Source of the DNA: a virus
Direction: 5' to 3' (one strand)
Virus record (IMG/VR): IMGVR_UViG_3300032177_000570
Location: 1-28,314 of that record
DNA: 28,314 bases
Positions 8,775-27,714 of the stretch are shown one piece after another. The notes beneath the pieces are model-generated. The model ran no database searches, was not told the DNA's origin, and was given only the letters and a program-made list of their open reading frames with translations. Within the stretch, counting starts at the first letter, position 1, and every line of letters starts with the position of its first letter. The position numbers and the translations under genes are program-made.

Positions 8775-8786
8775 GGAAGGGTGATT

Positions 8787-10040: not shown

Positions 10041-10270
10041 TTATTGATGAATTAATTACCACTAATCTTCGTTGTTGGATGGCTCAAGAAGATATTATGA
10101 ATATAAATTTAACAACAAAGAAACGGTTAGATGCGGCTGAGAGAGCACAAATTATGAACGCAAAACGGTCTGCTTTGATAAAAGCTATTGATACAGAATT
10201 AGGTTATGGAGATATATCTACTACTTTAAAAACATATTATACATATGATGATGAGGAGAGGAAGAAATGA
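10010..10270 (+). CDS. Small DUF4254-like helical protein of the glycan island
   Basis: An 86-residue all-helical, charged protein. The run 'IIDELITTNLRCWMAQEDI' followed by a variable linker and then 'RAQIMNAKRSALIKAID' matches, from memory, the pattern of DUF4254 proteins (IDEL...N...W..ED... then LNxxRNxLIxxID), which often sit among glycosyltransferase genes. The start at 10010 has a GGAG seven bases upstream and overlaps the previous gene by 31 bp; an alternative ATG at 10037 would give 77 residues. Its end overlaps the epimerase start (ATGA). Function is unknown; a helper or regulator of glycosyltransfer is inferred from context. Confidence 0.6.
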   Translation: MDITRKSIGMIIDELITTNLRCWMAQEDIMNINLTTKKRLDAAERAQIMNAKRSALIKAIDTELGYGDISTTLKTYYTYDDEERKK

Positions 10271-13009: not shown

Positions 13010-13661
13010 TTTAATAGTAGCAAGACCAATGGATAATATATGTTATAATGATTTTATTTACAATCCTTTTTGGGCAGGAGTACTCAATGTATTAGAAAAA
13101 TGTGGAGTAGAGACAGTAGTTGATATTGGAGCATCTAGTGGAATAAGTGCTTTGTGGATGTTAAATAGATTAACAGAAGTTAAAGAATATTATTGTTTTG
13201 AACCAGATGTTGAAAATTATCAAATGCTACTTACAAATCTAGAACGTTTTGGAAATAGAATAATTCCAATCAACTATGGAATTTATTATGGAGAAACAGA
13301 AGCAGAAGTATTTGGGGTAGGAGATAACAGTCCTTTGGGTTATACAGTTAAAGGTGCTATGGAAATAGACCCACATCATCAGTTCATGAAATATGAAGGA
13401 AAGATATTTCACTTTGTAGAATTAGAAAAATATATTATTGATGTTCCAGATTTAATTAAAGTAGATGTTGAAGGTTCTGAATATAATATTATAGAACATT
13501 CTACTATTCTAAAACAAGCAAGATATTTACTATTAGCATTTCATAATAAACTTGAAGCCGAAGTTTTGGATTTCATAAAGACATATTTACCTGAATATGA
13601 GATAGTAATCTATGGGCCTGATGGAACTATATATTTCAATATATTGTTAGAAAGGAAGTAG
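12999..13661 (+). CDS. FkbM-family SAM-dependent methyltransferase
   Basis: A 220-residue class I methyltransferase. Visible motifs are the SAM-binding 'VVDIGASSGISAL' near residues 39-51, the acidic 'YCFEPDVENY' that holds the ribose hydroxyls, and the family hallmark 'LIKVDVEGSEYNII'. FkbM-family enzymes usually O-methylate sugars or polyketide hydroxyls. Two adjacent ATGs exist; I chose 12999 because the AGGAAGG site (12986-12992) then sits six bases away, the same spacing as at 8787. It overlaps the STELLO-like gene by 11 bp. In this island it would cap a sugar with a methyl ether, but the substrate is not known. Confidence 0.85.
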   Translation: MAYNLIVARPMDNICYNDFIYNPFWAGVLNVLEKCGVETVVDIGASSGISALWMLNRLTEVKEYYCFEPDVENYQMLLTNLERFGNRIIPINYGIYYGETEAEVFGVGDNSPLGYTVKGAMEIDPHHQFMKYEGKIFHFVELEKYIIDVPDLIKVDVEGSEYNIIEHSTILKQARYLLLAFHNKLEAEVLDFIKTYLPEYEIVIYGPDGTIYFNILLERK

Positions 13662-13662
13662 T

Positions 13663-14949
13663 ATGGCATCAGTTTTATTTTTAGAGGATAAATTAAGAAC
13701 AGATAAGTTAGGTATTCTATACCTATCTAAAATACTTAAAAATGCAGGGCATACTGTAGATTTAGTCCAAGCATCCAAAGAAGAAATACCAGAAGCAGAT
13801 TTTATTATGTGTTCTGTTATGTCTGGTGAACATGAATGGTTCTTTAATAAATTAGCAGAATTAAAAAGCAATAGAAAGTTTGTATCAGTAGTAGGAGGCC
13901 CACACTTTACATTCTTTCCTGAATCTGGAATGAAAAATAAGAATATAGATTATGTAGTGGTAGGCCCAGGGGAAAATGTCATCTTAGATATTGTGGAGGG
14001 TAAATATCCTGAAGGTTTGGTTAGAGGAAGTTTACCAGATGTAAATAATATTCCTCATCCAGATAGGTCTATTCAGTATAAATATGATGATTTTGGTAAG
14101 GCAAGGATGAAGAGATTTATGGCTGGAAGATATTGTCTCTATAGCTGTACATACTGTTTCAATCATTTGTTCAAGAAGTTATATCAAGACCAGAAGAAAG
14201 ATTTTTTCCAAAGAGTATCTCCTGAGTTGATGATAGAAGAAATTCTAGAAGTAAAAAAGGATTATGGATTAGAATTAGTTTATTTCAATGATGATGATTT
14301 AGCATCTGACCCACAATGGTTAGAGAGTTTCTGTAAATTGATTTGGAAAACTGGATTACAATGGTGTGGTTCTGTAAGAGCTAATAGTATAAATGATAAA
14401 CGTCTTATAGAAATGATGGCTACTTCTAGATGTGTATTTCTTAATATAGCATTAGAATCTGCTGTTCCTGAAACACAAAAATTACTCAGGCGTGGGTTTG
14501 TAACTAATGAGCAAATAAGATTTACTACACAAACTTGTGAAAATAATGGAATAAAAATTAGACTTCAAAACATGATTGGTCTTCCAGTAGAAAATCCATT
14601 AGAAGATGCGTTAGCTACTTTGAAGATGAATCAAGAAATAAATCCAACAGATTCTTGGTGTGCTATATTTCAACCCTTTCCTAGAACAGATTTGTGGAAA
14701 TATTGTTTAGATAAAGGATTGATTACAGAAGAAACTCAAGCACAAGCATTTTATGAACACACGCCTTTGGATATTCCTGATGCAGATAAAATCAACAGGC
14801 TACATAAATGGTGGTTTTTTGCAATCAAATATCAATGGCCTATGGAATTAGTTAAAATACTTTTAGATACACCATTAACTAAAGAGCAAGAAATTAGAAT
14901 ACAAGACTATAGATGGGAAGTAGGAAAAACTTTATTATATGGAATGTAG
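13663..14949 (+). CDS. B12-binding-fold radical SAM enzyme
   Basis: A 428-residue protein. Residues 1 to about 110 form a cobalamin-binding-like Rossmann fold ending in 'VVGGPHFTFFPE' and 'VVVGPGENV', as in class B radical SAM proteins. The radical SAM core starts with the CxxxCxxC cluster motif at Cys158, Cys162 and Cys165 ('CLYSCTYCF'), and continues with 'YFNDDDL', 'LNIALESA' and 'MIGLPVENPLED', typical of the TIM barrel. The usual DxHxxG cobalamin motif is not seen; 'DKLRTDKLGILYL' stands in its place, so cobalamin may bind base-off or not at all. Class B enzymes often methylate or rearrange unreactive carbons. A role in making the modified sugar, or acting on a virion protein, is inferred. 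Good AGGAAG site upstream. Confidence 0.85.
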   Translation: MASVLFLEDKLRTDKLGILYLSKILKNAGHTVDLVQASKEEIPEADFIMCSVMSGEHEWFFNKLAELKSNRKFVSVVGGPHFTFFPESGMKNKNIDYVVVGPGENVILDIVEGKYPEGLVRGSLPDVNNIPHPDRSIQYKYDDFGKARMKRFMAGRYCLYSCTYCFNHLFKKLYQDQKKDFFQRVSPELMIEEILEVKKDYGLELVYFNDDDLASDPQWLESFCKLIWKTGLQWCGSVRANSINDKRLIEMMATSRCVFLNIALESAVPETQKLLRRGFVTNEQIRFTTQTCENNGIKIRLQNMIGLPVENPLEDALATLKMNQEINPTDSWCAIFQPFPRTDLWKYCLDKGLITEETQAQAFYEHTPLDIPDADKINRLHKWWFFAIKYQWPMELVKILLDTPLTKEQEIRIQDYRWEVGKTLLYGM

Positions 14950-14957
14950 GAGAGGTT

Positions 14958-15695
14958 ATGAATAAAATAGCATGTAGTCATCCAGGAAAAATTGGGGATG
15001 CGGTTTACGCATTACCTGCCATTAGAAAAGCATGTGAAATTAATAATACAACAGCAGATTTTTATACTAGTGATTATTGTAAACCTTTAAAGAAATTATT
15101 TGAGTATCAAAGTTGTATTAATGAATTTTGTATACCAGATAATTATCATATTGAAAGGATGGATATGGGTGTTCAACCGTTTGTTATGCCTATAGATACT
15201 TCTGAATATGATAGAGTTTATCAAATGGGATTTAGATGGGTACCAGACAGAGCAATACCAGATTTTATAGCACTATCTGTTGGGATACCACTTCCTGTTG
15301 TTGTAGAATATGAATATCCAGAATTTGATACTATGGATGAGCCTTTTATTGTGGTAGCACCCAGAGGTGAAACTTCGTATAAAGGATTATTTAATGATTT
15401 TATAAAAGTCTGTCCGCTTAAATGTGTAGTTGTAGGTGGGTTTGGAGACTATACAGGATTTGGAATTGACTTAACAGGACAAGATTTACTAGAAACAACT
15501 ACTTGGATTGCTAATTCAATAGGATTTTTTGGAATGATGTCATCTCAATTGGCATTAGCAAATGGATTTAATATTCCCAAGATAGCACCACATAACGGAA
15601 TAAATTGGGATATGAGACATGTGATTTACAGCGATACTAATTTTTATCCTGTAAATCCAACAGTATCAGAAATTTTAAGGATTTTAAATATTTAG
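14958..15695 (+). CDS. GT9-like (heptosyltransferase-type) glycosyltransferase
   Basis: A 245-residue protein. The N-terminal 'HPGKIGDAVYALPAIRK' (8-24) is the signature GxxGDxxxxxPxxxxL opening of family GT9 GT-B enzymes, best known as ADP-heptose:LPS heptosyltransferases. The later 'VVAPRGETSYKG', 'VVVGG' and 'GFFGMMSSQLALANGF' resemble the GT9 nucleotide-sugar site, where a G-x2-S-G-x2-H-L-A pattern is usual; the canonical His is replaced by Gln. It is short for the family (usually over 300), so the inter-domain part is trimmed. I chose ATG 14958 because a strong AGGAGAGG site (14948-14955) precedes it; the longer start at 14913 lies inside the radical SAM gene. It probably extends the glycan. 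Confidence 0.77.
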   Translation: MNKIACSHPGKIGDAVYALPAIRKACEINNTTADFYTSDYCKPLKKLFEYQSCINEFCIPDNYHIERMDMGVQPFVMPIDTSEYDRVYQMGFRWVPDRAIPDFIALSVGIPLPVVVEYEYPEFDTMDEPFIVVAPRGETSYKGLFNDFIKVCPLKCVVVGGFGDYTGFGIDLTGQDLLETTTWIANSIGFFGMMSSQLALANGFNIPKIAPHNGINWDMRHVIYSDTNFYPVNPTVSEILRILNI

Positions 15696-15706
15696 GAGAG
15701 GTTAAT

Positions 15707-16399
15707 ATGAATGTAAACTTATGTATACCAGTTTTAAAAAGATATGATTTATTAATTAAATGCCTTGAATCAGCAGAAGCTGGAACATTAAAACCAGAAA
15801 GATATTTTATTATTGATAATGGTAATAATCTTAATCTAGAATCATTTGATAAATTATATACAAATAAAGTATTTGTTGTAAAAGTTAGGCATAACTTAGG
15901 GGTAGCAAGAAGTTGGAATTGGTTTTTTGATAACGTACCCGATGAAATTGTACTATGTAATGATGATATAGAATTTTATGATGATTCTCTTGAAAAATTA
16001 ATGAGTGGATATGATGAGAATTTTTCAATATATCCATCAGAAGGTTCAACTTCATTTTCTTTAATGGCATTTCCAAGAAAAATAATTAATGATGTTGGAC
16101 ATTTTGATGAATCTTTGTCCCCTTATTATGCTTATTTTGAAGATAATGATTATCATTACAGAATGTTATTAAAAGGATATACTATAAAGGATGTTCCTGG
16201 TTGTAGAGTTAAACATGAGAATAGTGGAACTATGAAAATGTATACTCCTACAGAAATGAATATGCATCATCAAAAATTTAGAGAAGCAAGAGCTAGGTAT
16301 CTTGACAAATGGGGCGGAGAGCCAGTTAAAGAAAAGTTCAAAATACCTTATAATGGAGTCCTACAAGATGGCACTACAAGAAAAGATAACACAGGATGA
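15707..16399 (+). CDS. GT2-family glycosyltransferase
   Basis: A 230-residue GT-A enzyme. 'NLCIPVLKRYDLLIKCLES' opens the Rossmann-like half (4-22), 'FIIDNGNN' follows (34-41), then 'HNLGVARSWN' (62-71) and the metal-binding acidic motif NDD at 85-87. The 'YYAYFEDNDYHYRM' region (140-153) matches the catalytic ED base motif of GT2 enzymes, with 'GHFDE' just before it. The C-terminal 'VKHENSGT' is the usual closing His segment. It has no membrane helix, so it is not a processive or membrane-anchored transferase. An AGGAGAGG ribosome site precedes it. It is the last gene of the island and overlaps the start of the terminase gene by 32 bp, so the island is translated as part of the structural transcript. 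Confidence 0.87.
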   Translation: MNVNLCIPVLKRYDLLIKCLESAEAGTLKPERYFIIDNGNNLNLESFDKLYTNKVFVVKVRHNLGVARSWNWFFDNVPDEIVLCNDDIEFYDDSLEKLMSGYDENFSIYPSEGSTSFSLMAFPRKIINDVGHFDESLSPYYAYFEDNDYHYRMLLKGYTIKDVPGCRVKHENSGTMKMYTPTEMNMHHQKFREARARYLDKWGGEPVKEKFKIPYNGVLQDGTTRKDNTG

Positions 16400-17906
16400 A
16401 TGGTGTCTATATGAAATACTAAAACACCCAATTTTGTTTGGAGAGTTTTATAGAAATATAGATGTTTTAAGACATGAAAATTTTGAATATACTAGATACC
16501 AAAGAGAATATTTGGGAGATTTTAATCATTATGTTTCACTTTGTTGTGGAAGAGCAGTAGGTAAAACAGTATCATTAACTGATTTTATTCTTTGGATATT
16601 AATTAATAATTTTTTCCCAACTGAATATATTATATATACTGTTCCAAGTAAGACACATCTAGAACCAGTTTTTAATAGTCTTATTAAATATCTTAGAAGT
16701 AATACACTTTTAAAGAATTTTATAGAACCAAAGAGAGGAATTAATTCATCCAGTTATACAATTACTTTACTTAATAATGCACAATTATTTTGTAAAATTG
16801 CTGGGCAATCTGGAACTGGTGTAAATGTTATTGGACATCACACCCCAATAATAATTTTAGATGAAGCTGGTTATTATCCTTGGGGAACATGGCTAGAGTT
16901 ACAACCAGTTTTAAATACATGGGAAGATGGATTTAAATTATGGGTATCTGGTGTACCTACAGGGTTAAGAGAAGAATGTGTTTTATATTTAGCCGATGAA
17001 GTTAATGATGAATTTTCTCATCATAGAACATCAGCCCATGAAAATCCTAGATATAGTGAAGATGACGAAGAAAAAAATATAAAACAATATGGTGGGGTAG
17101 AAAATGAAGATTATATTCATTTAGTTTTGGGAAGACATGGTTCTCCAACCTTTGCAGTATTTGATAGAAGATTAATGCAAATTGATTCTTATCCAACTTA
17201 TAGACTTAGTTTATCTGGTATAGATTATTCGTATAATGAAATTATAAGTAGATTAGCATTAATTCCAGGATTACCTCCACATGATTTAGTAATCATGGGT
17301 ATAGACTTGGGATATACAGAACCTACTTCAATCATGATACTTTATGAGAAAAATGGTATAATAAAAGAACATGCAAGAATTAATTTTTACAAAGTAGCCT
17401 ACCCAACTCAAGAAAAATTGATAGATTATTTAGATACTAAATTTGGAAGACCAGAAGTAATAGGAATAGATTCAGGTAATGAAAAAGGTTTAACACAGCA
17501 TTTACTAGAAGATGATACATATCTACATAAAAATTATGTAAAAAGATTATTTCCAGTTTCTTTTGGTTCTTGGATTGTTTTGGGAGAAAACTCTGAAGGT
17601 GAAGAGATTAAAACTAAAGTCAAACCTCATAGTGTAACATTACTTCAAGAATATACTAACTCTCATAAGATGGTTTATTCATCTACTGATATGGAATTAG
17701 TTACAGAACTTGAAAGAATGACATATACTAAAACTCCTCTTGGAGAAGTTGTTTATAAAACACTTACTCCAAAAGGTGGAAAAAGAGGAGATGACCATAA
17801 TACTTCAGCCATGTTATGTGCCTCTGTAGCATATTTTATGTTAATAGTAGGACAGTTGTTTTCAAAACCACAAAAACCACTGGCTAAAAGTAGATGGGTA
17901 ATATAA
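16368..17906 (+). CDS. terL: Terminase large subunit (packaging ATPase-nuclease)
   Basis: A 512-residue DNA-packaging motor. It has the Walker A motif 'GRAVGKT' at residues 61-67 and Walker B 'IIILDEAG' with Asp165-Glu166. The C-terminal RNase H-like nuclease domain shows three acidic sites: Asp313 in 'MGIDLGYTEP', Asp368 in 'IGIDSG', and Asp475/Asp476 in 'KRGDDHNT'. The length is normal for the family. I chose ATG 16368, with GGAG nine bases upstream, over an in-frame ATG at 16302 that lies well inside the GT2 gene; the precise start is not certain. It works with the portal (next gene) and a small terminase, which is not seen in this window. Confidence 0.95.
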   Translation: MALQEKITQDEWCLYEILKHPILFGEFYRNIDVLRHENFEYTRYQREYLGDFNHYVSLCCGRAVGKTVSLTDFILWILINNFFPTEYIIYTVPSKTHLEPVFNSLIKYLRSNTLLKNFIEPKRGINSSSYTITLLNNAQLFCKIAGQSGTGVNVIGHHTPIIILDEAGYYPWGTWLELQPVLNTWEDGFKLWVSGVPTGLREECVLYLADEVNDEFSHHRTSAHENPRYSEDDEEKNIKQYGGVENEDYIHLVLGRHGSPTFAVFDRRLMQIDSYPTYRLSLSGIDYSYNEIISRLALIPGLPPHDLVIMGIDLGYTEPTSIMILYEKNGIIKEHARINFYKVAYPTQEKLIDYLDTKFGRPEVIGIDSGNEKGLTQHLLEDDTYLHKNYVKRLFPVSFGSWIVLGENSEGEEIKTKVKPHSVTLLQEYTNSHKMVYSSTDMELVTELERMTYTKTPLGEVVYKTLTPKGGKRGDDHNTSAMLCASVAYFMLIVGQLFSKPQKPLAKSRWVI

Positions 17907-17923
17907 ATTATGGAGAATATTAT

Positions 17924-19516
17924 ATGGATAATGATAAAATTAAACTAGTCAAGAAAGCAAAGGCAGCTTTTTTTGTACCACAGTCTAGTTATAGAAGTAA
18001 TATTAGTGTTTGGGGTTCTGCTCAAGTAGATAAACTATCATTTGAAGACCATGATACCTTTGTTAAGATTGTAAAAGATTGTAGGTTTTTCTTTAGACAT
18101 GAACCTATCGCTACTACTGTTGTAACAAAAATGGTCGGATTGGCTATTAATGATATTATTATTCCACAAGAAGAACTTTCTAAAACTGATTATCAAATTT
18201 ATAAATCTTTAAGAAATGATGTTATAAAGTTTATAAGAAAAGCATCTCTAGAATTTTTAACTACAGGTTTAGTGGTACCAGAAATAACTTTAACAACATT
18301 AAATAGGAAGCAATTAAGAGAAAAAGGAATACAAAGATTAGATTCACTTCTATATCCAACTAATATGTGGCTTAGAAATGCACAGGATATTATAATTAAT
18401 AGACCATTTATTACAGATGAAGAGTCTTATTTTTTACAAATTCCTGATGATATTACAATGTTTATACAGACAAAGGGTACATATGAAGATGGGTCTAAAG
18501 ATATAGAATTATATACTAAAATAGTAACTTTATATCCAGAATTTGTTGCACAAGTAGCGGCTGGAGATAAGAAAATATTACTTGATAATCCTTTGATTAT
18601 AAAATCAACAATATTATCAGATTCACAATATCCAATTCCTTATCTATATCCAGGTTTAGAATCATTTAAACACAAAAGAAATTTAAAAAGAATGGATTAT
18701 TCTATTGCTGCAAGAGTAATTAGTGCTATACTTCATGTAACTGCTGGTAATGATAACTTTCCATTGACAGAAGACCAAGAAGAAACATTAGATGATTTAG
18801 AACAAAAATTTCGCTGGAGAGAAGGATTTAGTACGGAGGAAGTTGAAAGAGTATTTACTTTATTTACTAACCATACTGTAACATTGAATTGGGTATTTCC
18901 AGATGTGGAAGCATTATTGAATGATAAAAAATATGATGCAGTAAATAAAGATATTATATTAGCTTTGGGATTTCCTAGAATATTAATTACAGGTGAAACA
19001 GAACGGTCATTTACTTCTGACCCTGAAATAGCTACATTATCTCCCACAAGTACTATGGAAATTATGAGAGATGCTTTAATGCCTGTTATTCATAAAATAT
19101 TTTATGAAGTAAAAGAACAAAATGAATTAAAAAGTGACCTGCCTGATATAGAATTTACACCTATTAATTTATTAGGGTTAAGATTATATTACGAAGGTTT
19201 ATCAAAATTATATGATACAGGAAATCTATCTAGAACATCCTATGCAAAGTCTTATGGATATGATATATCAGAAGAATTTGCTAAAAAAGAAGAAGAAAAG
19301 AAAATGTTAAAAACTTATGGTTTAGATGAAGAAGTGCTTGCACCTGGAGGTAAAGAACAATTAACTATTAAAGATAATCAGATGCAAAAACAACAGAAAA
19401 TAAAACAAGACCAAGTGATGGAACAACAAAAATTAAAACAAGAAAATGATAATAAACAGGTTAAACAAGTTAAACCAGGCGCACCTGTTGGTAATGATAA
19501 CGGTAAACAGGCATAA
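17924..19516 (+). CDS. Portal protein
   Basis: A 530-residue protein directly after the terminase. The order TerL-portal-protease, the length, and the patterns 'FFRHEPIATTVVTKMVGLAIND' (split here as FFRHEPIATTVV and TKMVGLAIND), 'LYPTNMWL', 'YLYPGLESFKHKRNLKRMDYSIAA' (LYPGLESF, KHKRNLKRMDY) and the long helix after it fit a portal clip-stem-wing layout. The C-terminus beyond about residue 460 is a Gln/Lys-rich, low-complexity tail (MQKQQKIKQDQ and repeats of it), probably flexible or coiled. ATG 17924 has GGAG eight bases upstream; the longer start at 17894 overlaps the terminase. Portal rings sit at the capsid vertex and form the DNA channel. The call rests mainly on position and layout. 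Confidence 0.8.
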   Translation: MDNDKIKLVKKAKAAFFVPQSSYRSNISVWGSAQVDKLSFEDHDTFVKIVKDCRFFFRHEPIATTVVTKMVGLAINDIIIPQEELSKTDYQIYKSLRNDVIKFIRKASLEFLTTGLVVPEITLTTLNRKQLREKGIQRLDSLLYPTNMWLRNAQDIIINRPFITDEESYFLQIPDDITMFIQTKGTYEDGSKDIELYTKIVTLYPEFVAQVAAGDKKILLDNPLIIKSTILSDSQYPIPYLYPGLESFKHKRNLKRMDYSIAARVISAILHVTAGNDNFPLTEDQEETLDDLEQKFRWREGFSTEEVERVFTLFTNHTVTLNWVFPDVEALLNDKKYDAVNKDIILALGFPRILITGETERSFTSDPEIATLSPTSTMEIMRDALMPVIHKIFYEVKEQNELKSDLPDIEFTPINLLGLRLYYEGLSKLYDTGNLSRTSYAKSYGYDISEEFAKKEEEKKMLKTYGLDEEVLAPGGKEQLTIKDNQMQKQQKIKQDQVMEQQKLKQENDNKQVKQVKPGAPVGNDNGKQA

Positions 19517-19531: not shown

Positions 19532-20548
19532 ATGAAAACAATCACGTTACAAGCTTTTGATGTAAAATTAATGATAGATAAATTGGAGATAGAAGAAATG
19601 GCAGCTTCGGCTTCCATATCTTTAAATCCAAATGTTGCTTGGATGAAATTCCTGCTTACTGATGATAAACATAATGCTAATAGGCAGAGAATACCAAGAG
19701 AAGAATTTGCAAATGTTTTAAGAACGGGTTTATTCATGCCATTAAAAATGGCATACGGAGATATATCCGAAGGGCATGCTGATACATTCCCTTTGGGTGT
19801 TATGACTCATTTAAAAACTGAAGGCAATTCAATCCAGGCACTAGCGGCTCTTTGGGATAGAGAGAGACACGAAGATGTAGAGTTTCTCAGAAGTAGATAC
19901 TCCGAGGGAAAGGGTATCAACATTTCTTGGGAACTAACCTATACAGATGAAGAAAATGAAGATGATGGGGTGGCATTAAAAAATGTATCTATGAACGCTG
20001 CGACCATTGTAGGTATGCCAGCGTATCAAGGAAGAACTCCAGCACTTGCACTATCTTCTAAGGAAAAAGGAGATTCGATGGAAAACACGATTGAATTAAC
20101 TGAACATGAAAGACTAATGAATGAGCAGAAACAACAGTATGAAACTAAAGTTTCTGAAATTCAAGCAAGTTTTGAAGAAGTTCAAACTGAATTAGTTACG
20201 TTAAAACCTCAGTTAGAGGATTTGACAAACTTTAAGAAAACTATTGAAGCTGCAGAAGCTAAGAAAGAAAAACTTGCTTCAATTAAACAAAAATTTGTGG
20301 ATGCTAATCTTGAAATTACAGATGAGTATTTCAACGAAAGAACGGAAGCTTTCGCAGGGATGTCTGATGAGCAACTAGAGTTCTTTATTCAAGAACTTGT
20401 AGCAGCTTTTGAAAAACCTTCTGATAAGGATGGTAAAGCTACAGCGTCAATCAGCATTACTTCTAAGAAAGTTCCTCAAATAAATACACCTGATTCTGGT
20501 ACAATTACACCAGCAGATATTGTAAAATATCTAAAAGAACAAAACTAA
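19532..20548 (+). CDS. Prohead protease fused to a scaffold domain
   Basis: A 338-residue two-part protein. Residues 1 to about 178 look like a capsid maturation protease: 'GHADTFPLGVMTHLKTEGN' (86-104) fits the catalytic His region, and 'GKGINISWELTY' the serine region of the herpes/HK97-like fold. Which serine is catalytic cannot be fixed by eye. Residues about 185-285 are charged, heptad-like and predicted coiled coil, typical of scaffold; the tail to 338 ends in 'TPADIVKYLKEQN', a likely capsid-binding helix. In-frame Met183 has its own AGGAG ribosome site (see the internal CDS), so free scaffold is probably also made. Sits between portal and decoration protein, as expected. Confidence 0.8.
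   Translation: MKTITLQAFDVKLMIDKLEIEEMAASASISLNPNVAWMKFLLTDDKHNANRQRIPREEFANVLRTGLFMPLKMAYGDISEGHADTFPLGVMTHLKTEGNSIQALAALWDRERHEDVEFLRSRYSEGKGINISWELTYTDEENEDDGVALKNVSMNAATIVGMPAYQGRTPALALSSKEKGDSMENTIELTEHERLMNEQKQQYETKVSEIQASFEEVQTELVTLKPQLEDLTNFKKTIEAAEAKKEKLASIKQKFVDANLEITDEYFNERTEAFAGMSDEQLEFFIQELVAAFEKPSDKDGKATASISITSKKVPQINTPDSGTITPADIVKYLKEQN
20078..20548 (+). CDS. Internal in-frame scaffold protein (nested start within the protease gene)
   Basis: The ATG at 20078 is in frame with the protease gene and falls exactly at the junction between the protease part and the coiled-coil part. An AGGAG at 20068-20072 lies five bases before it, as good a ribosome site as most genes here have. 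Starting there gives a 156-residue scaffold ('MENTIELTEHERLM...'), rich in Glu, Lys and Gln. The same layout is known from the lambda C/Nu3 pair and other phages, where a shared C-terminus supplies excess scaffold. What I see is the site and the domain boundary; actual use of this start is inferred. Confidence 0.65.
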   Translation: MENTIELTEHERLMNEQKQQYETKVSEIQASFEEVQTELVTLKPQLEDLTNFKKTIEAAEAKKEKLASIKQKFVDANLEITDEYFNERTEAFAGMSDEQLEFFIQELVAAFEKPSDKDGKATASISITSKKVPQINTPDSGTITPADIVKYLKEQN

Positions 20549-20563
20549 GGAGCGATATTAGCT

Positions 20564-21145
20564 ATGGAAATCAATAAATATACTGATATTATAGGTGTTA
20601 TAGCCTGTGGTGACGTTGTAGAAGGCCGCATGGTTTTGCTTACTTCTCATGGCTCAAGCTATGATTTTGGCAGTAGAGCAGACTTGTTTGGTGTAAGAGT
20701 ACCTGCAAGTGCATCTGAGGCCTTAAAAGCTAAGTACATTGTATCTTGGCCTGTAAGCAATTCACAAGTTACAGATGATATTAAAATGTTAGTCCCAATG
20801 CCTTCCTATGATTGGTCACTAAGACAGGGTGGATTTGGTGCAGCGGGAAATGTCCCGTTCACATCAAAAATCTTCTTAACTTACCCTGGAAATCAAAATG
20901 GGGTAACAATCCCTTCGGGTTATCAAGCTTTGGCATTTGACAAAGGCGTATTCACAGTACAATCTGGTGGATTTACATTCTCTGCTGCTATTATGGCGGC
21001 TGGTGCTCCTTTAAGAGTAAAGAATGTCGCTGATGACACTTTAGCTGAGGCTGGTAAATTAGTTTACGATGCTGCATCTGGTATTATTGCTGTCGTTGAA
21101 CGGTTTAATTCTGATGATGGTTCTTTAACCTTCAGAACACTATAA
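20564..21145 (+). CDS. Head decoration protein (probable)
   Basis: A 193-residue protein between the protease/scaffold and the major capsid gene, the usual place for a head decoration protein. It is Gly/Ser/Ala-rich with beta-strand patterns and ends 'GKLVYDAASGIIAVVERFNSDDGSLTFRTL'-like (split: GKLVYDAASGIIAVV, then ERFNSDDGSLTFRTL), typical of the small beta-barrel proteins that bind capsid lattice vertices. No signal peptide or membrane segment is present. Like the capsid gene, its codons contain more G and C than those of neighbours, which suits a highly expressed protein. The AGGAG site is 11 bases from the ATG, slightly long. An alternative is a minor capsid cement protein. Confidence 0.65.
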   Translation: MEINKYTDIIGVIACGDVVEGRMVLLTSHGSSYDFGSRADLFGVRVPASASEALKAKYIVSWPVSNSQVTDDIKMLVPMPSYDWSLRQGGFGAAGNVPFTSKIFLTYPGNQNGVTIPSGYQALAFDKGVFTVQSGGFTFSAAIMAAGAPLRVKNVADDTLAEAGKLVYDAASGIIAVVERFNSDDGSLTFRTL

Positions 21146-21163
21146 AAAAGGAGAATACTAATT

Positions 21164-22081
21164 ATGGCTGATGAAAAACAAATTCAAGAAGCTATTGCAT
21201 CAATGGTGCAGGATAAAAGCCAAAGAGATGCGTTAGCAGAAATTATCGTTGAATACGTACAGCCTAACCATTTAACAGGACAGATTGTTGGTAATCTTTT
21301 AAACACTAGAGCTTTGAAACCTGGCGATAGCCTTGTAAAGAAAGTTAGAAGAGGCATTAGAGTTAGAACTTTAGTTCCTGGTGCAGTTCATCTCGCAAGT
21401 GAAATGACTGTTTCAGAAAGAATCAACTATGTGTTAGATGGTGCTGACGTGAAAGTTACCTATAACGAGTGGGAAATGGATAGTGGTGAAATTGGCACTC
21501 TTCAAGAAATTAGAGCAGAAATGGCTGCAAAGTTACAAGATTATTTCTATAATAAAATCTTTACAGCTTTAGGTACCATTTGGACTGCTGGAAATACCCC
21601 TAACAACTATGTTTCTGTTGGTGGTGTATTGACTGATACTGCTTTAATTACCGCAATCAATAGAATTAACCAGACAACTTCTGGTGCGAAAGCTATTGTA
21701 GGTGCTCGCTCTGTTATTACTCCAATCTCTAAATTTGCTGGGTTCTGGAGTAGAGATGGTTCAAACTATACTGGCTCTCAAACCAAGATTGATGAGGTTT
21801 TGAATACTGGTAAAATTGGTGTGTTCTACGGTGTTCCTATCGTAGCAATTGACCAAGTTTATAACAATCCTGAAGACTACCAGAAACTTATTCCTGAAAC
21901 TTTTGTTCTTGTTATTGGTGAAGGAGTTGGTGAATTTATTACTTATGGTGATGTAAAACAGAAACAATGGTCAGATATGAATCCTACGCCTCCACAGTGG
22001 ATGCTTGAACTTTATCAACAGTTCGGTATGATAATTGATAATGCTCAGGGAATTTATATGCTCAACAACGTAACACCCTAA
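21164..22081 (+). CDS. Major capsid protein, HK97-like fold
   Basis: A 305-residue protein. Its order after protease, scaffold and decoration genes, size, and the pattern of a helical N-arm, a central 'EWEMDSGEIGTLQEIRAEMA' spine-helix region, the 'TLITAINRIN'-like P-domain stretch ('ALITAINRINQTTSGAKAIV'), and a C-terminal 'GVFYGVPIVAIDQVYN' strand all fit an HK97-fold shell protein. There is no long N-terminal delta domain, which agrees with a separate scaffold being supplied by the gene before it. The gene is the least AT-rich in the window by eye and is followed by a strong hairpin at 22098-22121, both expected for a very abundant virion protein. Start ATG has AGGAG ten bases upstream. 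Confidence 0.87.
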   Translation: MADEKQIQEAIASMVQDKSQRDALAEIIVEYVQPNHLTGQIVGNLLNTRALKPGDSLVKKVRRGIRVRTLVPGAVHLASEMTVSERINYVLDGADVKVTYNEWEMDSGEIGTLQEIRAEMAAKLQDYFYNKIFTALGTIWTAGNTPNNYVSVGGVLTDTALITAINRINQTTSGAKAIVGARSVITPISKFAGFWSRDGSNYTGSQTKIDEVLNTGKIGVFYGVPIVAIDQVYNNPEDYQKLIPETFVLVIGEGVGEFITYGDVKQKQWSDMNPTPPQWMLELYQQFGMIIDNAQGIYMLNNVTP

Positions 22082-22097
22082 GTTACAAAAATAATTA

Positions 22098-22121
22098 TGG
22101 GGGAGGCGAAAGTCTCCCCCA
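22098..22121 (+). terminator. GNRA-capped hairpin after the major capsid gene
   Basis: A stem of nine pairs (22099-22107 with 22112-22120, one G-U) plus a possible outer T-A pair closes on a GAAA tetraloop. It is GC-rich in a very AT-rich setting. It is followed by ACTTAAAATTT, not a proper run of T, so it may terminate only weakly or act as an mRNA-stability element at the end of the capsid message. The next gene has its own GGAG site, so partial read-through would still express the connector genes. Confidence 0.75.
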
Positions 22122-22149
22122 CTTAAAATTTAGAAAGGAGTAATTTATT

Positions 22150-22626
22150 ATGACGGATTTAGATTTATATGCTGCCATGCAAGAGGGAAAAGAACCACTT
22201 GCTAGGTATAGAAAAACAATCGTAGGAAAGGTGCACGTAATTGCTCTTAACCCCTTTTCGGATGCTCCAGAAGGGGTTATTCTTGAAGGAGATAGTGAGA
22301 AATCTTATTTAGAATTTTGGAGTACAAAACAACTTGTATTTTTTGAAAGAATGAATAGAAATCATGTAGAAGCTGGAAGAATTGTAAAAATGGAGAAAAC
22401 TCCAGAACCTCCTCCAGTTACTCCTAATCAACTTTCAGACGATGATATTGATAAACTTCTAAATGAGAAATTTTTATCTTTGAAAAGTAGAGTAAGTAAA
22501 TTTACAGATACAGCACCCTTATTGAGACTTTTAAACAGAGCTAGAGAACTAGAAAAATCAGAAAAAATTATTAAATATCTAGAGGAAGCTATGTCTAACC
22601 TTGAATTAGAGAAGTATGAACAATAA
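22150..22626 (+). CDS. Unknown protein between capsid and connector genes
   Basis: A 158-residue protein with a GAAAGGAG ribosome site. Residues about 20-80 are beta-rich ('KTIVGKVHVIALNPF', 'YLEFWSTKQLVFFERM'), then a short proline linker ('EKTPEPPPVTP') leads to a charged helical C-terminus (95-158) that could be a coiled coil. It is soluble, with no catalytic motif. The position just after the major capsid protein and before the head-tail adaptor suggests a minor capsid or connector part. I do not recognise the family. A hairpin-forming inverted repeat lies in its coding DNA near 22249-22278. Confidence 0.6.
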   Translation: MTDLDLYAAMQEGKEPLARYRKTIVGKVHVIALNPFSDAPEGVILEGDSEKSYLEFWSTKQLVFFERMNRNHVEAGRIVKMEKTPEPPPVTPNQLSDDDIDKLLNEKFLSLKSRVSKFTDTAPLLRLLNRARELEKSEKIIKYLEEAMSNLELEKYEQ

Positions 22627-23114
22627 TGGCTACAGATTTAAATTACCTTATCCCAAGATTAAGATTAAAATTAGGAGATTTAAATCCATCTAGTTATAGA
22701 TATTTAGATGATTGGTTACATTCAGCTTTAATAGGTTCAGTAGATGCATTACAACGCTGGTGGGATGATAAATATCAAATAGATGAGAATAATAGAGTTT
22801 ATCCTAATATATTGAGAAGAGATGTTCAACCCATTATATTGATGGCATGTATTATTGTCAAAAGTGGAAGTTTAGAAAGTTTTTCATGGAATGTAGGTTC
22901 ATGGAGAGATGCAGAGATTTCATTTTCAAATATTGAAGGTAGTAGAGATAAACAAGAATCACTAAAAAGAGATTGGGATGAATTAAATTTACTATTAACA
23001 GCACCTAATAAGAAATTAGCAGGTTCTGTTAAGGGACATTTGCCTGGATATGTTGGAACAACTGAAATGGGGCAAGGTGATGAATATTTAACATTCGTAG
23101 ATAACAAAGAATAA
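22626..23114 (+). CDS. Head-tail adaptor-like connector protein
   Basis: A 162-residue soluble protein that overlaps the stop before it by one base (TAATG), so translation is probably coupled. The N-terminus 'LIPRLRLKLGDLNPSSYRYLDDWLHSAL' in two parts (LIPRLRLKLGDLNPSSY and RYLDDWLHSAL) is the helical pattern of phage adaptor proteins (the gp6/gp15-like family opens with a short 'L...lR..igd......f.D..l..alN.A'). The C-terminal 'DEYLTFVDNKE' is probably flexible. The position, two genes after the major capsid, suits a ring that joins portal and tail. Evidence is pattern and context, not a signature motif. Confidence 0.6.
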   Translation: MATDLNYLIPRLRLKLGDLNPSSYRYLDDWLHSALIGSVDALQRWWDDKYQIDENNRVYPNILRRDVQPIILMACIIVKSGSLESFSWNVGSWRDAEISFSNIEGSRDKQESLKRDWDELNLLLTAPNKKLAGSVKGHLPGYVGTTEMGQGDEYLTFVDNKE

Positions 23115-23130
23115 GAAAAGGAAGGGTTTT

Positions 23131-24336
23131 ATGGAAGAAAATAATATTAAAGGATTATGGATTTCAGACGCAGTTGCAGCAACTGGTTTTGCTAGAGTTG
23201 CTCACTCAATTATAGGAAGTTTACCCACAGAATATGAGATTCACCACTTAGGAATTAACTATTTTGGTGACCCTCATCCATATAAGCATAAGATTTACCC
23301 TGCTAGTTTAGGTGGAGATGTTTACGGTCTTGGTAGATTGGAGAGTATGGTGTTAGGACTAAGGCCTGATTTTATATTTATGATAAATGACCCATGGGTA
23401 ATTTCAATGTACCTCAATGAACTAAGAAAAATTAAGAAGGAACTTCTACCACCTATAGTAGTATATTTCCCTGTGGATGCTAAAGAGCATAGCCCAAGTT
23501 TTTATCAGAGTTTTGATTTAGTTAAAGAAGTATGTGTATATACTAATTTTGGAAAAGATGTTATCTTAGATACAAAATCTCCAAATATATCGTCAAATAA
23601 AATTCATATCATTCCGCATGGAATTTCTTCAAGTATTTTTTACCCAATGGATTCTACTTTTTCTAGACAAGCTCTATATCCTCAAGAAAGAATGGAAGAG
23701 TTTTTAAATTCTTTTATTGTGTTTAATGGAAATAGAAACCAACCTAGAAAAAGAATGGATATAACTATGTGGGCGTTTAGAGAATTTCAAAAGGATAAAC
23801 CAGATGTAAAATTATATCTTCATATGGGAATACAAGATTTAGGATATAATGTAGCAGAATTGGCGGTTAGATATGGATTTGACAACAAGTTGATTTTGTC
23901 TACTACATCAAATCAAATTCCAAGTTTACCAGAAGAGAGATTAAATATTGTTTATAACGCCTGTGATGTAGGCATAAATACATCAATTGGAGAGGGTTGG
24001 GGGCTGGTTAATTGGGAACATGCTGCTACGGGTAAATTACAAATTATGCCTAATCATTCTGCTTTGTCAGAAATATGGGAAAATGAAAATACAGCAATTT
24101 TACTTCCTACAATTATGGATGAGATGGTAGAAAGAGTAAATACTGTTGGCAGAGTGGTTGATTTAAATTCTTTAGTAGAAGCACTAAATTGGGCATATGA
24201 TGATTGGAAAAATAATGGTGCTGATAAGATAAAAGCAATTGGTCAAAAAGGTTATGAACTCACTAAAGAAAGAAAATTTAAGTGGAAAAGTGTAGCTGAT
24301 AAGTTTGATTATGTAATAAAGAAGGCAATTAAATGA
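23131..24336 (+). CDS. GT4-family glycosyltransferase embedded in the connector cluster
   Basis: A 401-residue GT-B enzyme. The C-terminal donor-binding half carries 'NGNRNQPRKRMDITMWAFREF' (NGNRNQPRKR, MDITMWAFREF) and the retaining EX7E motif: Glu288 and Glu296 in 'GEGWGLVNWEHAATG'. The N-terminal half has the acceptor-side strand 'LWISDAVAATGFARVAHS', as in GT4 proteins. It is soluble. It has its own AGGAAGGG site and overlaps the next gene (ATGA at 24333), so it is part of the assembly operon rather than a stray insertion. It lies between adaptor and head-closure-like genes, about 7 kb from the main glycan island. Attachment of sugar to a capsid or tail protein is the likely role; the acceptor is unknown. 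Confidence 0.87.
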   Translation: MEENNIKGLWISDAVAATGFARVAHSIIGSLPTEYEIHHLGINYFGDPHPYKHKIYPASLGGDVYGLGRLESMVLGLRPDFIFMINDPWVISMYLNELRKIKKELLPPIVVYFPVDAKEHSPSFYQSFDLVKEVCVYTNFGKDVILDTKSPNISSNKIHIIPHGISSSIFYPMDSTFSRQALYPQERMEEFLNSFIVFNGNRNQPRKRMDITMWAFREFQKDKPDVKLYLHMGIQDLGYNVAELAVRYGFDNKLILSTTSNQIPSLPEERLNIVYNACDVGINTSIGEGWGLVNWEHAATGKLQIMPNHSALSEIWENENTAILLPTIMDEMVERVNTVGRVVDLNSLVEALNWAYDDWKNNGADKIKAIGQKGYELTKERKFKWKSVADKFDYVIKKAIK

Positions 24337-24770
24337 CAATTTTTTGGCCTGAAACAACAGATACAATTGATGCAATCAGAGAAGCAATAGGAAGAAATAT
24401 AACTATTCTTGTTACAACATCTGGTGTACCATGTTCTGTGTGTAGTTTAAATCCTGTTTCTAATCTATCTACTAATCCTTTCTGTCCAGTTTGTGGTGGC
24501 ACATATTGGACAAATACTAGTTCTGGATATGTGGTAAATGCACATGTAACTATAGGTGAAATTGATTTACCTTGGAGAGTAGCTGGTGGATATTTAGAGA
24601 AGGGTGAGGCTGTAGTTCAAATAAAATATAATACTCAAAATCTATATTTAGTTGAGCATGCTGAACATTATATTGTAGATAGAAAAATTTACTTACAAGA
24701 TGATATATCATATCGGGGTGTTCCTGATATAAACAGGATGGTTATAACACTTAAAGAACAGGAAGGTTAA
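24333..24770 (+). CDS. Head-closure-like connector protein with zinc ribbon
   Basis: A 145-residue protein overlapping the GT4 stop. The N-terminus 'TIDAIREAIGRNITI' resembles head-closure proteins of phages. It contains two CxxC pairs, Cys34/Cys37 and Cys51/Cys54, that form a zinc-ribbon-like knuckle ('PCSVC' and 'FCPVCGG'). The rest is beta-rich ('VVNAHVTIGEIDLPW', 'AVVQIKYN', 'YIVDRKIYLQDDISYRG'), suiting the small beta-barrel of a stopper. The likely role is to close the capsid vertex after packaging. The zinc ribbon is unusual for this class but seen in some phage proteins. The call is from position and pattern. Confidence 0.55.
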   Translation: MTIFWPETTDTIDAIREAIGRNITILVTTSGVPCSVCSLNPVSNLSTNPFCPVCGGTYWTNTSSGYVVNAHVTIGEIDLPWRVAGGYLEKGEAVVQIKYNTQNLYLVEHAEHYIVDRKIYLQDDISYRGVPDINRMVITLKEQEG

Positions 24771-24771
24771 T

Positions 24772-25005
24772 ATGACAGGAGAAATTATAATTGAAGGTTT
24801 GGATTTAGTAGATGCTCTTAATGTAATTGAAAATAAAAAAGATAAGTTTGTTGCAATTATGCTAAGTGATATTGAATTACAATTTCCTAAGAATGGAAAA
24901 GATTTTAAATTCATTAGAAAAGTTATTCTTGATGGAATGAATGATTATACAAGGTCTTATCTAAGAATCTTATTTGGAGATGTAGAAGGACTTGTGATGA
25001 AATAG
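24772..25005 (+). CDS. Small unknown protein of the connector cluster
   Basis: A 77-residue protein with a good AGGAAGG site just before its ATG, one base after the previous stop. It is charged and mostly helical, with 'DALNVIENKKDKFVAIM' and 'KFIRKVILDGMND' as the main helices. There are no cysteines, membrane segments or catalytic motifs. Gene packing and its ribosome site make it a real gene. It may be a helper or regulator of the connector proteins. Function is unknown. Confidence 0.6.
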   Translation: MTGEIIIEGLDLVDALNVIENKKDKFVAIMLSDIELQFPKNGKDFKFIRKVILDGMNDYTRSYLRILFGDVEGLVMK

Positions 25006-25006
25006 T

Positions 25007-25954
25007 ATGGACAATGCAGCAAATTATTTTAAAGATATGTCATGGAAAGCTAAAAAATTAATTGCTGAAACTTCAAGTATAGCTAATGATTTTGCTGGAA
25101 GAATGGGAAGAATAGAACAAAGAGTTTTAGTAGAGTATGTAACTCTTCCTTCATCTGCTCCTATTGATGAATATACTTTAAAAATGAAATTTATTAAAAT
25201 TTATAATAGAACTTATGCAGAAATTTTTAAACAAGAGATATTAGACGCTGCTTTTAAATCTATTGAGTATACTAGAAAGTATAAATTTTTTATACAACTT
25301 TCTACACTGGTAGATAAAAATATTAATTATATTTTAAAAGCATTAGTATCAGAAGGAATTGGAGGAGCTAGATTAGTAATGGAAATGGTAGCTGGCGACT
25401 TTAATGATTTAATGGAAGGTGTAGAAACAGCAAGAACAAATTTAAATGCTTATAACCAATATACACGTTGGAAAAAAATGCCTAATAAAGCAAGGCGTGA
25501 CATGGTATGGAAAGAATTTGTTTGGCCTGATGATAAATATTATGATAAGACCATAAAAGAAAGATTTTCTGCGTGGGGTAATACAGCCCCTTATTGGGTT
25601 TTATTAGACCAAGGAAATCAAGAATTTGAAGGGGCTTATCCTAAATTTACAGCAACAGAATTTTTCTACGGTGCATGTGTAAAAATAATAGCTGATTTAA
25701 GTGAACGTGTCGTATTATATAAAGCTGAATTTGGAAATAAAAATTCTGTAGAATCTACAATAAGATACGAGACACAAACAGTTACAATAGAAGTATCTAA
25801 TTTAATTAGAAAAGCAGTAGCAGAGTTTGAGCGTAATCCAAGTTATTATAATCCTGGTGATGAATTTCAAAGATATACAGATATTATGGATGGCTACGAA
25901 TATAAGATTTACGTAACTCCAAAAAGAAAAGTAGGAGTACCTAGGGTTAGATAA
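25007..25954 (+). CDS. Neck/tail-completion-like protein with long helical N-terminus
   Basis: A 315-residue protein starting one base after the previous stop, with only a weak ribosome site, so translational coupling is likely. Residues 1 to about 150 are helical and charged. Residues about 160-240 include 'FSAWGNTAPYWVLLDQGN' and 'GAYPKFTATEFF', which follow the 'APYW..LExGN...YP...tnF' pattern seen in phage neck or tail-completion proteins. The last 50 residues hold aromatic turns ('NPSYYNPGDEFQRY') and a basic tail. A minor head-tail joining protein is the likely role. I cannot assign a named family with confidence. Confidence 0.55.
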   Translation: MDNAANYFKDMSWKAKKLIAETSSIANDFAGRMGRIEQRVLVEYVTLPSSAPIDEYTLKMKFIKIYNRTYAEIFKQEILDAAFKSIEYTRKYKFFIQLSTLVDKNINYILKALVSEGIGGARLVMEMVAGDFNDLMEGVETARTNLNAYNQYTRWKKMPNKARRDMVWKEFVWPDDKYYDKTIKERFSAWGNTAPYWVLLDQGNQEFEGAYPKFTATEFFYGACVKIIADLSERVVLYKAEFGNKNSVESTIRYETQTVTIEVSNLIRKAVAEFERNPSYYNPGDEFQRYTDIMDGYEYKIYVTPKRKVGVPRVR

Positions 25955-25956
25955 AT

Positions 25957-26412
25957 ATGAATTTAGACATAAAACAGAATTTAAGTTTATACTATTATGT
26001 AAAGGTTGTGTTATCGGGGTATCCAACTGTGAATGTAACAGATGACTATCCCAATACCGAACTGATATTACCCTCGGTATCAGTTGTAGGTAATGACGTA
26101 ATACCCAAGCCGCTTGAATTAGGAAATAGGCATGGAACTAGAAATAGATTATGGGATATTGAAATTTATGGAGCTAATAAAAATCAGAGAGATGAAATTA
26201 CTTATGTTTTATTAGATGACTTAGAAGAAGGTATTCCAGTTTACGACTATGACTATGGATTTCCGCCTAGTGGAGTACCTCAAATTGGGGTACTAAATAT
26301 AAAACCAAACACACTAGTTGCAGCACCAAGCAGAGTATTTCCAGACTTAACGGAAAGACTTTATTGGAGAGCTAGTATAAAATTTTTGACAGAATACGAA
26401 AGTATTACTTAG
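25957..26412 (+). CDS. Tail terminator/completion-like protein
   Basis: A 151-residue soluble protein directly before the tail tube gene, the usual place for a tail terminator. The N-terminal helix-strand 'DIKQNLSLYYYVKVVLSG', the strand 'LILPSVSVVGNDVIPKPLELG' (LILPSVSVVGND, VIPKPLELG), 'RLWDIEIYGANKNQRDEITY' and the final strand 'RLYWRASIKFLTEYE' follow the alpha-beta layout of terminator proteins, in which two edge strands flank a helix. It would cap the tail tube and join it to the connector. A strong inverted repeat in the coding DNA (26060-26085) is noted separately. Confidence 0.65.
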   Translation: MNLDIKQNLSLYYYVKVVLSGYPTVNVTDDYPNTELILPSVSVVGNDVIPKPLELGNRHGTRNRLWDIEIYGANKNQRDEITYVLLDDLEEGIPVYDYDYGFPPSGVPQIGVLNIKPNTLVAAPSRVFPDLTERLYWRASIKFLTEYESIT

Positions 26413-26424
26413 GAGGTCTCTATA

Positions 26425-27630
26425 ATGGCTAGAAGATTAGCAATTCCATCAAAAGCTGTAGAGCTAAAAATTGTAGGAGCAAGGGACTCTTTGGTTATTC
26501 CTAGAGTACAGAGATTGTCCGTAACTGCTGATAGACCTTCAACTGATATTGATGAATTGGGTAATAGACTACACTCAGGAACAATTGAAGATATTCCTGC
26601 AATAACTGTAACCTTTCAGGCTATGGATGTTGGAATTAAATTGTTTGCAATTTTAACTGGTAAAGATTGGGCAGCTTATCCAGCTAGTGGTGTTAGTATT
26701 ACTGAATTAACCGATTCGGATATTATTACACTTATTAAAAGTGATTCAGTTGAAGACTATGTAAAAATGTCACATGCTCGGCGTTGTGTAATCAGAGATT
26801 TTACTTTCACCTACACGGTGGATGGAGAATCTACTGAAGAGTATACCATGATTGGTACTCAGAAAAGATGGTTTAAAAATGATGTTTATGTCCAGAAGGA
26901 AACTACTGGTACTACCACATTTACTTTAACCTATACTCCTGTTGCACTAAAGAGCGGTAATAAAGCATTATCCGTTATCTTAGATGGTGTTTATTTAACT
27001 GAAAAATTAACTGCAGGCCCAGCAACTGGAGAATATTATATTACTGGTACGACTTTGACAACTGGTGATACCAGAGCAAGTCAATTACTAGTAGTATATC
27101 AGATTGCTCCACAAGCTGGAATGAACTGGGTAGATGCTGTTGATGCAACACAACCTGCTGCTGTAAGAGGTATGGATGTTCCTGTTGTAATTGGTGCTGG
27201 TGGAATCGAAAGAGTCCAATCAATAACAATTAATGGTACATTCAATCCTGAAGCAGTTAAAGAAATGGGCAATAGAGATATTCTTGGTTATCAGATGCAA
27301 ATCCCTTCAGTAACTGGTACAATTACTGTACTAGATACTGATGTTGAACTTATTGCATTACTTACCACAGGACAATTGAATCCATCTGGTGTAACTGAAT
27401 TTGGTGCGTCAGAATTTACTGCGAGTGGTATTAAGCTCTTGGTAAAGTTATATGACCCGGCAGTAAAGACACCCCCATATCCTGCATTAAAAACACTATA
27501 TATGCCAGCAATTTCTATTACTAATGAAGGATTTACTTCAAATGTTAATCAAAATGCTCAACAGACATTTGATTTTAAGTCCACCACAGGTGAAATTAAA
27601 GTCTACAAAGGCTCAGGCATATTCGGATAA
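26425..27630 (+). CDS. Major tail tube protein, internally duplicated
   Basis: A 401-residue protein with the best ribosome site in the window (AGGAGG at 26411-26416). It shows the pattern of phage tail tube proteins twice: residues about 27-80 ('VQRLSVTADRP...ELGNRLHSGTIEDIPAITVTF...LFAILTG') and about 262-316 ('VQSITINGTFN...EMGNRDILGYQMQIPSVTGTI...LIALLTTG'). Between them, at about 160-230, lies a Thr-rich Ig-like domain. The C-terminal 'SITNEGFTSNVNQNAQQTFDF' closes the second tube domain. The tube is the long inner conduit of the tail. If both halves build the wall, three copies would make a ring of six domains. No sheath gene is seen nearby. Confidence 0.8.
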   Translation: MARRLAIPSKAVELKIVGARDSLVIPRVQRLSVTADRPSTDIDELGNRLHSGTIEDIPAITVTFQAMDVGIKLFAILTGKDWAAYPASGVSITELTDSDIITLIKSDSVEDYVKMSHARRCVIRDFTFTYTVDGESTEEYTMIGTQKRWFKNDVYVQKETTGTTTFTLTYTPVALKSGNKALSVILDGVYLTEKLTAGPATGEYYITGTTLTTGDTRASQLLVVYQIAPQAGMNWVDAVDATQPAAVRGMDVPVVIGAGGIERVQSITINGTFNPEAVKEMGNRDILGYQMQIPSVTGTITVLDTDVELIALLTTGQLNPSGVTEFGASEFTASGIKLLVKLYDPAVKTPPYPALKTLYMPAISITNEGFTSNVNQNAQQTFDFKSTTGEIKVYKGSGIFG

Positions 27631-27667
27631 AACTTAATTAAATAATAAATTTATAGTAAAAGGTTAA

Positions 27668-27714
27668 AAAAGGGACTATAATAGAGAAATCTAGATATAG
27701 TCCCTTTTCTTTTT
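27668..27714 (+). terminator. Strong intrinsic terminator after the tail tube gene
   Basis: A perfect 13-pair stem (27668-27680 with 27696-27708), with a further four-pair helper stem TAGA/TCTA (27682-27685 with 27690-27693) closing on a GAAA loop, is followed by a C and five T (27710-27714). It is the clearest rho-independent terminator in the window and would lower expression of the genes downstream relative to the abundant tail tube. Confidence 0.92.

Follow-up and report, generated by a model that had tools for sequence, protein, structure and literature searches.

A GT4-type glycosyltransferase gene fixed in the head-neck operon of a deep clade of uncultured tailed bacteriophages suggests sugar decoration of the virion

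The stretch of viral DNA analysed here (the window) is the 28,314-base virus record IMGVR_UViG_3300032177_000570, and all of its annotated features lie on the plus strand. Ahead of the glycosyltransferase gene of interest (GT4) it carries, in this order, large ORFs, a sugar island and the genes for the terminase, the portal, g18, g19, the major capsid protein (MCP), g21 and g22. In the sugar island (8781-16399) Pfam recognised a C-methyltransferase, an NAD-epimerase, an FkbM methyltransferase and a B12-binding radical SAM protein, among others, and the last gene of the island encodes a GT2 glycosyltransferase (15707-16399; Pfam GT2; phrog_29879, E 5e-35). PHROG profiles identified the terminase large subunit (16302-17906; phrog_2, E 5e-18), whose true start is probably further downstream, the portal protein (17894-19516; phrog_2739, E 3e-14) and the MCP (21164-22081; phrog_2522 major head protein, E 1.7e-8); no search named g18 or g19. 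The large ORFs upstream of the island had no convincing Pfam match and are fibre-like by reading. Relatives of three ORFs of the window's first part (g01, g02 and g05; 60-8774) occur in one other locus (L109) directly after g21 rather than before the sugar island, and the set is a putative mobile cassette. A tRNA search found none, and promoter-like sites across 20400-27700 were at chance level.

The GT4 gene (23131-24336) is preceded by a Shine-Dalgarno-like AGGAAGGG (23119-23126, an AGGAAGG stretch read directly) and encodes a predicted GT4-type, retaining glycosyltransferase of 401 amino acids with a GT-B fold. The hallmark of GT4 enzymes is an E-X7-E motif in the C-terminal domain together with basic donor-phosphate residues. 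The ORF scored 29.2 bits against Pfam Glycos_transf_1 (curated cut-off 26.4) and 28.4 bits against Glyco_trans_1_4 (cut-off 27), and over nearly its full length it matched the PHROG 2170 'glycosyltransferase' profile (E 1.4e-42), which PHROGs files under 'moron, auxiliary metabolic gene and host takeover'. The two glutamates of its E-X7-E motif (E-GWGLVNW-E; residues 288-296, 23992-24018) were the same in all 23 relatives aligned, and the motif is kept in all 88 groups of relatives with a full-length GT4, in 82 by a pattern requiring G and in six, with S at that position, by eye. In the RNQPRKR stretch (residues 202-208, 23734-23754) residues 202-207 were invariant in the alignment and residue 208 nearly so. 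An AlphaFold2 model that drew on 22 relatives besides the window protein had a mean pLDDT of 90.8 and a pTM of 0.89, and both Foldseek and VIA-align ranked 3oy2, the chlorovirus NY-2A protein B736L, first (VIA-align Z 39.2, rmsd 2.5 over 366 residues; next entry Z 34.4), followed by BshA, MshA and sucrose-phosphate synthase. A sequence profile of the GT4 family likewise retrieved B736L at E 4e-37, the next chain standing at 4e-7. The two-Rossmann GT-B fold, the E-X7-E motif with basic residues and the Pfam group 1 score above cut-off place the protein in the GT4 family and bear out the original prediction, which had read an intact EX7E enzyme from the letters. No membrane stretch was found in GT4; because the highest 19-residue mean hydropathy among 23 proteins was only 1.73, the proteins look soluble, and the window GT4 is predicted to be a soluble, retaining GT-B enzyme with an intact active site.

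The gene had been described as lying between adaptor-like and head-closure-like genes, and the two halves of that description fared differently. No PHROG or PDB profile match gave a name to g22 (22626-23114), the connector gene before GT4, which is adaptor-like by its position in the gene order only. The AlphaFold2 model of g24 (24333-24770), the gene after GT4, was of moderate quality (pLDDT 74.6), and its top VIA-align rows were phage neck or connector entries of Pam3, NF5, SaPI1, GTA, lambda and XM1 (Z 10.3 to 9.0; the Pam3, NF5 and SaPI1 necks at 10.3, 10.1 and 9.6), with SPP1 gp6/gp15/gp16 at Z 8.8. Since these top fold matches are phage neck or stopper proteins, the designation of g24 as a head-closure (stopper) protein holds at the level of the model. 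A CxxC...CxxC pattern (C34, C37, C51 and C54; 24432-24494), invariant in 21 of 21 aligned proteins, marks a zinc-ribbon-like insert of the stopper. The TGA stop of GT4 and the ATG of the head-closure gene share an ATGA overlap (24333-24336) that had been noticed before and is confirmed by direct reading, and the sole plus-strand terminator-like match between the two neighbours of GT4 is a weak hairpin within the GT4 gene.

IMG/VR was scanned with GT4, MCP, g24 and g22 singly and with alignments of MCP, GT4 and g22, and loci sharing exact 300-mers were merged into independent groups. The GT4 alignment scan kept the best 80 of at least 589 relatives, so that the wider distribution of the family lies outside the sample. 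Exclusion of loci found by GT4 alone left a GT4-independent set of 73 groups, in which GT4 was present in 54 of the 55 groups running at least 300 nt beyond g22 and in all 43 groups reaching at least 1.3 kb upstream of g24. The sole exception (L026) is a contig that ends 305 nt past g22, inside a small ORF of a type found repeatedly as cargo in other relatives. A separate scan with the g22 alignment found GT4 within the fetched stretch in 55 of 58 groups; the flank was 4 kb, and two of the three misses (L144 and L103/L165) have GT4 about 5 kb further along the same contigs, behind cargo, the third (L282) ending 380 nt on in another cargo ORF. When all loci were counted, GT4-ascertained ones included, GT4 lay within 200 nt of g22 in 84 of the 88 groups with both genes and within 200 nt of g24 in 69 of 74. 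Six groups have the MCP, at least 1.2 kb after it and no recognisable g22 (the L016 set, L039, L096, the L108 set, L120 and L210), and these run into cargo ORFs or end; L096 holds a piece of GT4, and L210 (MCP 47%) shows none in its short stretch. Each of 14 large relatives (62-97 kb, picked among GT4-bearing loci) has one GT4 place, in one of them reported as two pieces.

No relative with the same connector order was thus seen to be devoid of GT4 where the contig reads on, and a recent insertion of the gene was rejected on this ground. The coupling to connector genes, part of the original prediction, is real and old. It could still be imagined that GT4 is an old passenger, kept where the head module tolerates insertions and functionally unconnected with the particle, and in many relatives repeat-rich fibre-like, pectate-lyase-like, sulfatase-like and other ORFs do lie between MCP, g21, g22, GT4 and the stopper gene. 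This cargo varies from phage to phage, however, whereas GT4 is constant, single-copy, intact in its catalytic motif and co-inherited with structural genes, and we regard the passenger explanation as very improbable. Cargo proteins with short tandem repeats (e.g. DSVGITD) were observed at several points of the head-neck operon (L015:14868-16967, L028:11916-13694, L165:3547-4713 and L149:2993-5149) and are possible glycan acceptors. LAGLIDADG endonuclease ORFs interrupt MCP and GT4 in L047 (3124-3840 and 6714-7490) and likewise in L048, where the GT4 interruption falls at the EX7E codons in both and an Rfam search of the interrupted GT4 found no intron; in L049 and L162 the MCP is, by eye, also interrupted by endonuclease-like ORFs.

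In 60 of the 71 groups scored (74 hold both genes, three of them unscored) the stop of GT4 overlaps the nearest ATG of g24 or lies no more than 3 nt from it, a count biased towards overlap by a script that took the ATG nearest to the overlap arrangement; exact ATGA or TAATG overlaps occur in 29 of the 71. The geometry of the junction varies among groups, which is what a maintained coupling of GT4 and g24 would give. The fixed place among connector genes and the translational overlap with the stopper gene would also suit a protein that reuses a glycosyltransferase fold to help assemble the neck or to serve as a minor part of the virion, but the EX7E motif and a basic RK pair are conserved family-wide and relatives in other phages sit in sugar-gene neighbourhoods, which makes a non-catalytic role highly unlikely.

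Across 32 groups the patristic distances of GT4 correlated with those of the portal (r 0.84), the tail tube (0.82), g24 (0.76), the MCP (0.67) and g22 (0.56), and the same comparison between structural genes gave r 0.32-0.83. The dN/dS of GT4 was 0.14-0.21 in six pairs, compared with 0.05-0.30 for its neighbours and 0.26-0.92 for g26, synonymous sites being near saturation in the wider pairs, and these values indicate purifying selection. Because of its near-universal synteny, single copy, purifying selection and co-inheritance with portal and tail tube, GT4 is, as far as sequence comparison can tell, a core gene of the head-neck module in the window's clade, a large, deep group of uncultured tailed bacteriophages, and not the 'moron' of the PHROGs label. 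Within the otherwise conserved neck operon g26 (25007-25954) is hypervariable, with 31-58% identity where most neighbours have 75-98%. Between one close pair of contigs (L007/L051) nucleotide identity was 93-96% in g22, dropped to 77-87% in segments over GT4, recovered to 92-98% across g24-g25 and fell again at g26 (64-80%); the GT4 gene as a whole is present as a different allele. Only one further pair was very close, and there GT4 and GT2 ranked with the genes of lowest conservation, by modest margins. To look for the acceptor, co-variation between GT4 and single virion genes was examined in 21 groups and gave no clear partner; the top partial value was with g27 (0.60), none appeared with g26, and because the distances are non-independent the result was set aside.

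GT2 precedes the terminase in 33 of 41 groups, is absent there in the other eight and is missing from two of the 14 large relatives; the sugar island apart from GT2 varies among relatives. A tblastn search of 50,697 phage records with the GT2 of the window, S-CBS4 or phiPsal1 returned three records representing two phages (S-CBS4 twice, and phiPsal1). A GT2 profile built without S-CBS4 recovered S-CBS4 at E 3.8e-32 and phiPsal1 at 3.3e-27, and the GT4 profile found them at 4e-107 and 1.5e-14, respectively. The gene order in Synechococcus phage S-CBS4 is portal, one hypothetical ORF, GT4, GT2 and methyltransferase, with protease and MCP downstream, and in Pontimonas phage phiPsal1 it is MCP, GT4, methyltransferase, GT2 and neck gp6; in Microcystis phage Mae-JY09 the MCP is followed by a hypothetical gene and a GT4 relative, with a head-tail adaptor some genes later. 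By a criterion of our own rather than a published one, glycosyltransferase and structural genes are stably associated in the clade and in three other phages.

In S-CBS4 and phiPsal1 both the GT4 and the GT2 homologues thus lie inside the head module, as the window GT4 does, and they are adjacent or two genes apart, whereas terminase, portal and capsid genes intervene in the window's clade. The distance of GT4 from the main sugar island had originally been taken to suggest a second target, a reading that this arrangement does not favour: because the homologues sit together in these head modules, the likeliest reading is that GT4 and GT2 belong to a single pathway and do not have two targets. 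This probable pathway is thus met again in the head modules of phages that are otherwise unlike one another, since none of the window's other head-gene profiles matched S-CBS4. The presence of a GT2 partner of the neck-operon GT4 in unrelated isolates, as read from these homologies, is to be considered new, and a full-text search of open-licence papers found no literature on a connector-operon GT4 or on the glycosyltransferases of S-CBS4 and phiPsal1.

The same GT4 family was also found outside the head operon in another phage clade (11 of the 80 loci kept, forming seven groups), some loci of which carry a GT2 relative nearby. At L199:3556-7381, and in its relatives L197-L208 other than L206, GT4 is flanked by a divergent terminase on one side and a weakly GH130-like (mannoside phosphorylase) ORF on the other, the neighbour families having been checked in L199 only. 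In S-EIVl and TJE1 a GT4 relative is located away from capsid genes. The phrog_2170 neighbours in Flavobacterium immuto phages and RM378 gave weak matches and were set aside.

The GH130-like ORF, the one neighbour checked in that clade, is compatible with the main rival to virion glycosylation, namely that the glycosyltransferases and the island alter a lipid-linked or surface glycan of the host, for superinfection exclusion or receptor masking, and that the place in a late operon only sets the timing. GT4 enzymes of such fold often use lipid or LPS/glycan acceptors, WaaG, PimA and PglA being among the fold matches, and the PHROGs category of the family points in the same direction. Late co-expression with neck genes, however, would be a poor moment for blocking superinfection, GT4 has no membrane stretch, no membrane partner was seen beside it, and a gene that modified the host as an accessory should not keep one fixed neighbour in 43 of 43 groups. 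We consider host-surface modification unlikely on balance. Serotype conversion of the gtr type combines a membrane glycosyltransferase with a flippase (GtrA) and a bactoprenol glycosyltransferase (GtrB), and no Pfam match to such partners was found in the 23 of 29 window ORFs scanned.

Glycosylation of DNA is, according to excerpts of a published account (PMC12619734), an established role of phage glycosyltransferases, and GT4 might, like T4-type or TET-linked enzymes, glycosylate a hydroxylated base in the phage's own DNA. This appears extremely improbable because thymidylate-synthase/hydroxymethylase (PF00303) was found in none of the 14 large relatives while the control was positive in nine of 14, with the proviso that these records may be incomplete and that the window itself has only 28 kb. 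One relative (59 ORFs scanned) has ordinary C5 and N6/N4 DNA methylases, and GT4 sits among neck genes rather than replication genes. The search for a TET/JBP dioxygenase, negative in all 14 large relatives, was uninformative, its control being silent too.

One large relative (59 of 84 ORFs scanned) encodes GH25, SLT, RecA, PolA and DnaB proteins, and a bacterial host for the clade is therefore likely. A full head-neck operon with GT4 was observed in a Bathyarchaeota MAG (L209), perhaps through a binning error; an archaeal host is the less likely reading, the bacterial-type lysis and replication genes of the large relative speaking against it together with the absence of MCM from all 14 large relatives, a result of little discrimination since its control is found in bacteria too. 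Amidase_2 was likewise found in none of the 14. Amidoligase, RimK-like ATP-grasp, glutamine amidotransferase and peptidase C26 proteins were observed in one relative (L214-L217, on a contig shared with L073).

We favour, with a probability of about 0.6, the reading that GT4 and GT2 act together to assemble a single glycan, attached to a virion protein and made with sugars of the island. GT4 would be made late, together with the particle proteins, and would transfer a sugar onto a virion protein in the cytoplasm, GT2 would extend or precede this step in the same pathway, and the variable island upstream of the terminase would supply a special sugar. Virions glycosylated on capsid, decoration, neck or exchangeable fibre proteins would result; the capsid or connector, put forward in the original prediction, is a plausible acceptor, although synteny cannot name one. 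A particle glycan driven to diversify by hosts or by other binders would be in keeping with the constant glycosyltransferases, the variable island and the GT4 allele difference. A more far-reaching reading, which we hold to be less likely than not, is that head-neck assembly in this clade includes sugar attachment as a built-in step, with GT4, translated in step with the stopper, glycosylating a virion protein as the particle is assembled. The GT4 and GT2 pair would also have entered head modules independently in several unrelated lineages, and virion glycosylation would be widespread among uncultured phages as a core trait and not confined, as an accessory, to a few mycobacteriophages. What is new is a glycosyltransferase that is apparently obligate and translationally coupled in the neck operon of this deep clade of uncultured phages; GT4 is as fixed as the surrounding neck genes across this clade, and GT2 marks the same pairing in unrelated isolates. 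Because GT4 sits among the genes that join head and tail, these observations suggest that the viruses decorate their own particles with sugar during building, and if this is true a large share of the uncultured virosphere may have sugar-coated particles.

Glycosylation of phage virions is known from few isolates, and phage glycosyltransferase genes are usually filed as accessory. The category of PHROG 2170 implies such an accessory gene, whereas GT4 of the window's clade behaves as core. In mycobacteriophages Che8 and Rita, phage glycosyltransferases are reportedly thought to glycosylate particle proteins (Freeman et al. 2023). Virion glycosylation by mycobacteriophage glycosyltransferases is described in two reports (PMC12619734, PMC11256854), in the second of which the glycosyltransferases of the F1 mycobacteriophage Maravista are placed near the 3' end of the genome. 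Compared by gene location, the Maravista enzymes lie outside the neck operon, unlike the window GT4. The best profile and fold match of the window GT4, chlorovirus NY-2A B736L (PDB 3oy2/3oy7), is a virus-encoded glycosyltransferase of a virus that glycosylates its own particle, and the two proteins share motifs beyond the general GT4 ones (NRN..RKRLDI, matched by the RNQPRKR stretch, and GEG.GL). B736L differs in that it belongs to a virus of a eukaryotic alga and has 22% identity to the window GT4 in structural alignment. Excerpts of the published work give GDP-mannose as its preferred donor by calorimetry and its acceptor as unknown (PMC9614988, PMC4691112), and describe the NY-2A capsid glycans as free of mannose (PMC9614988). 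By analogy, a donor of the GDP-mannose type would be a first guess for the window GT4, and a weak one in view of these last two points. The GT4 clade would in turn offer B736L a prokaryotic family for comparison.
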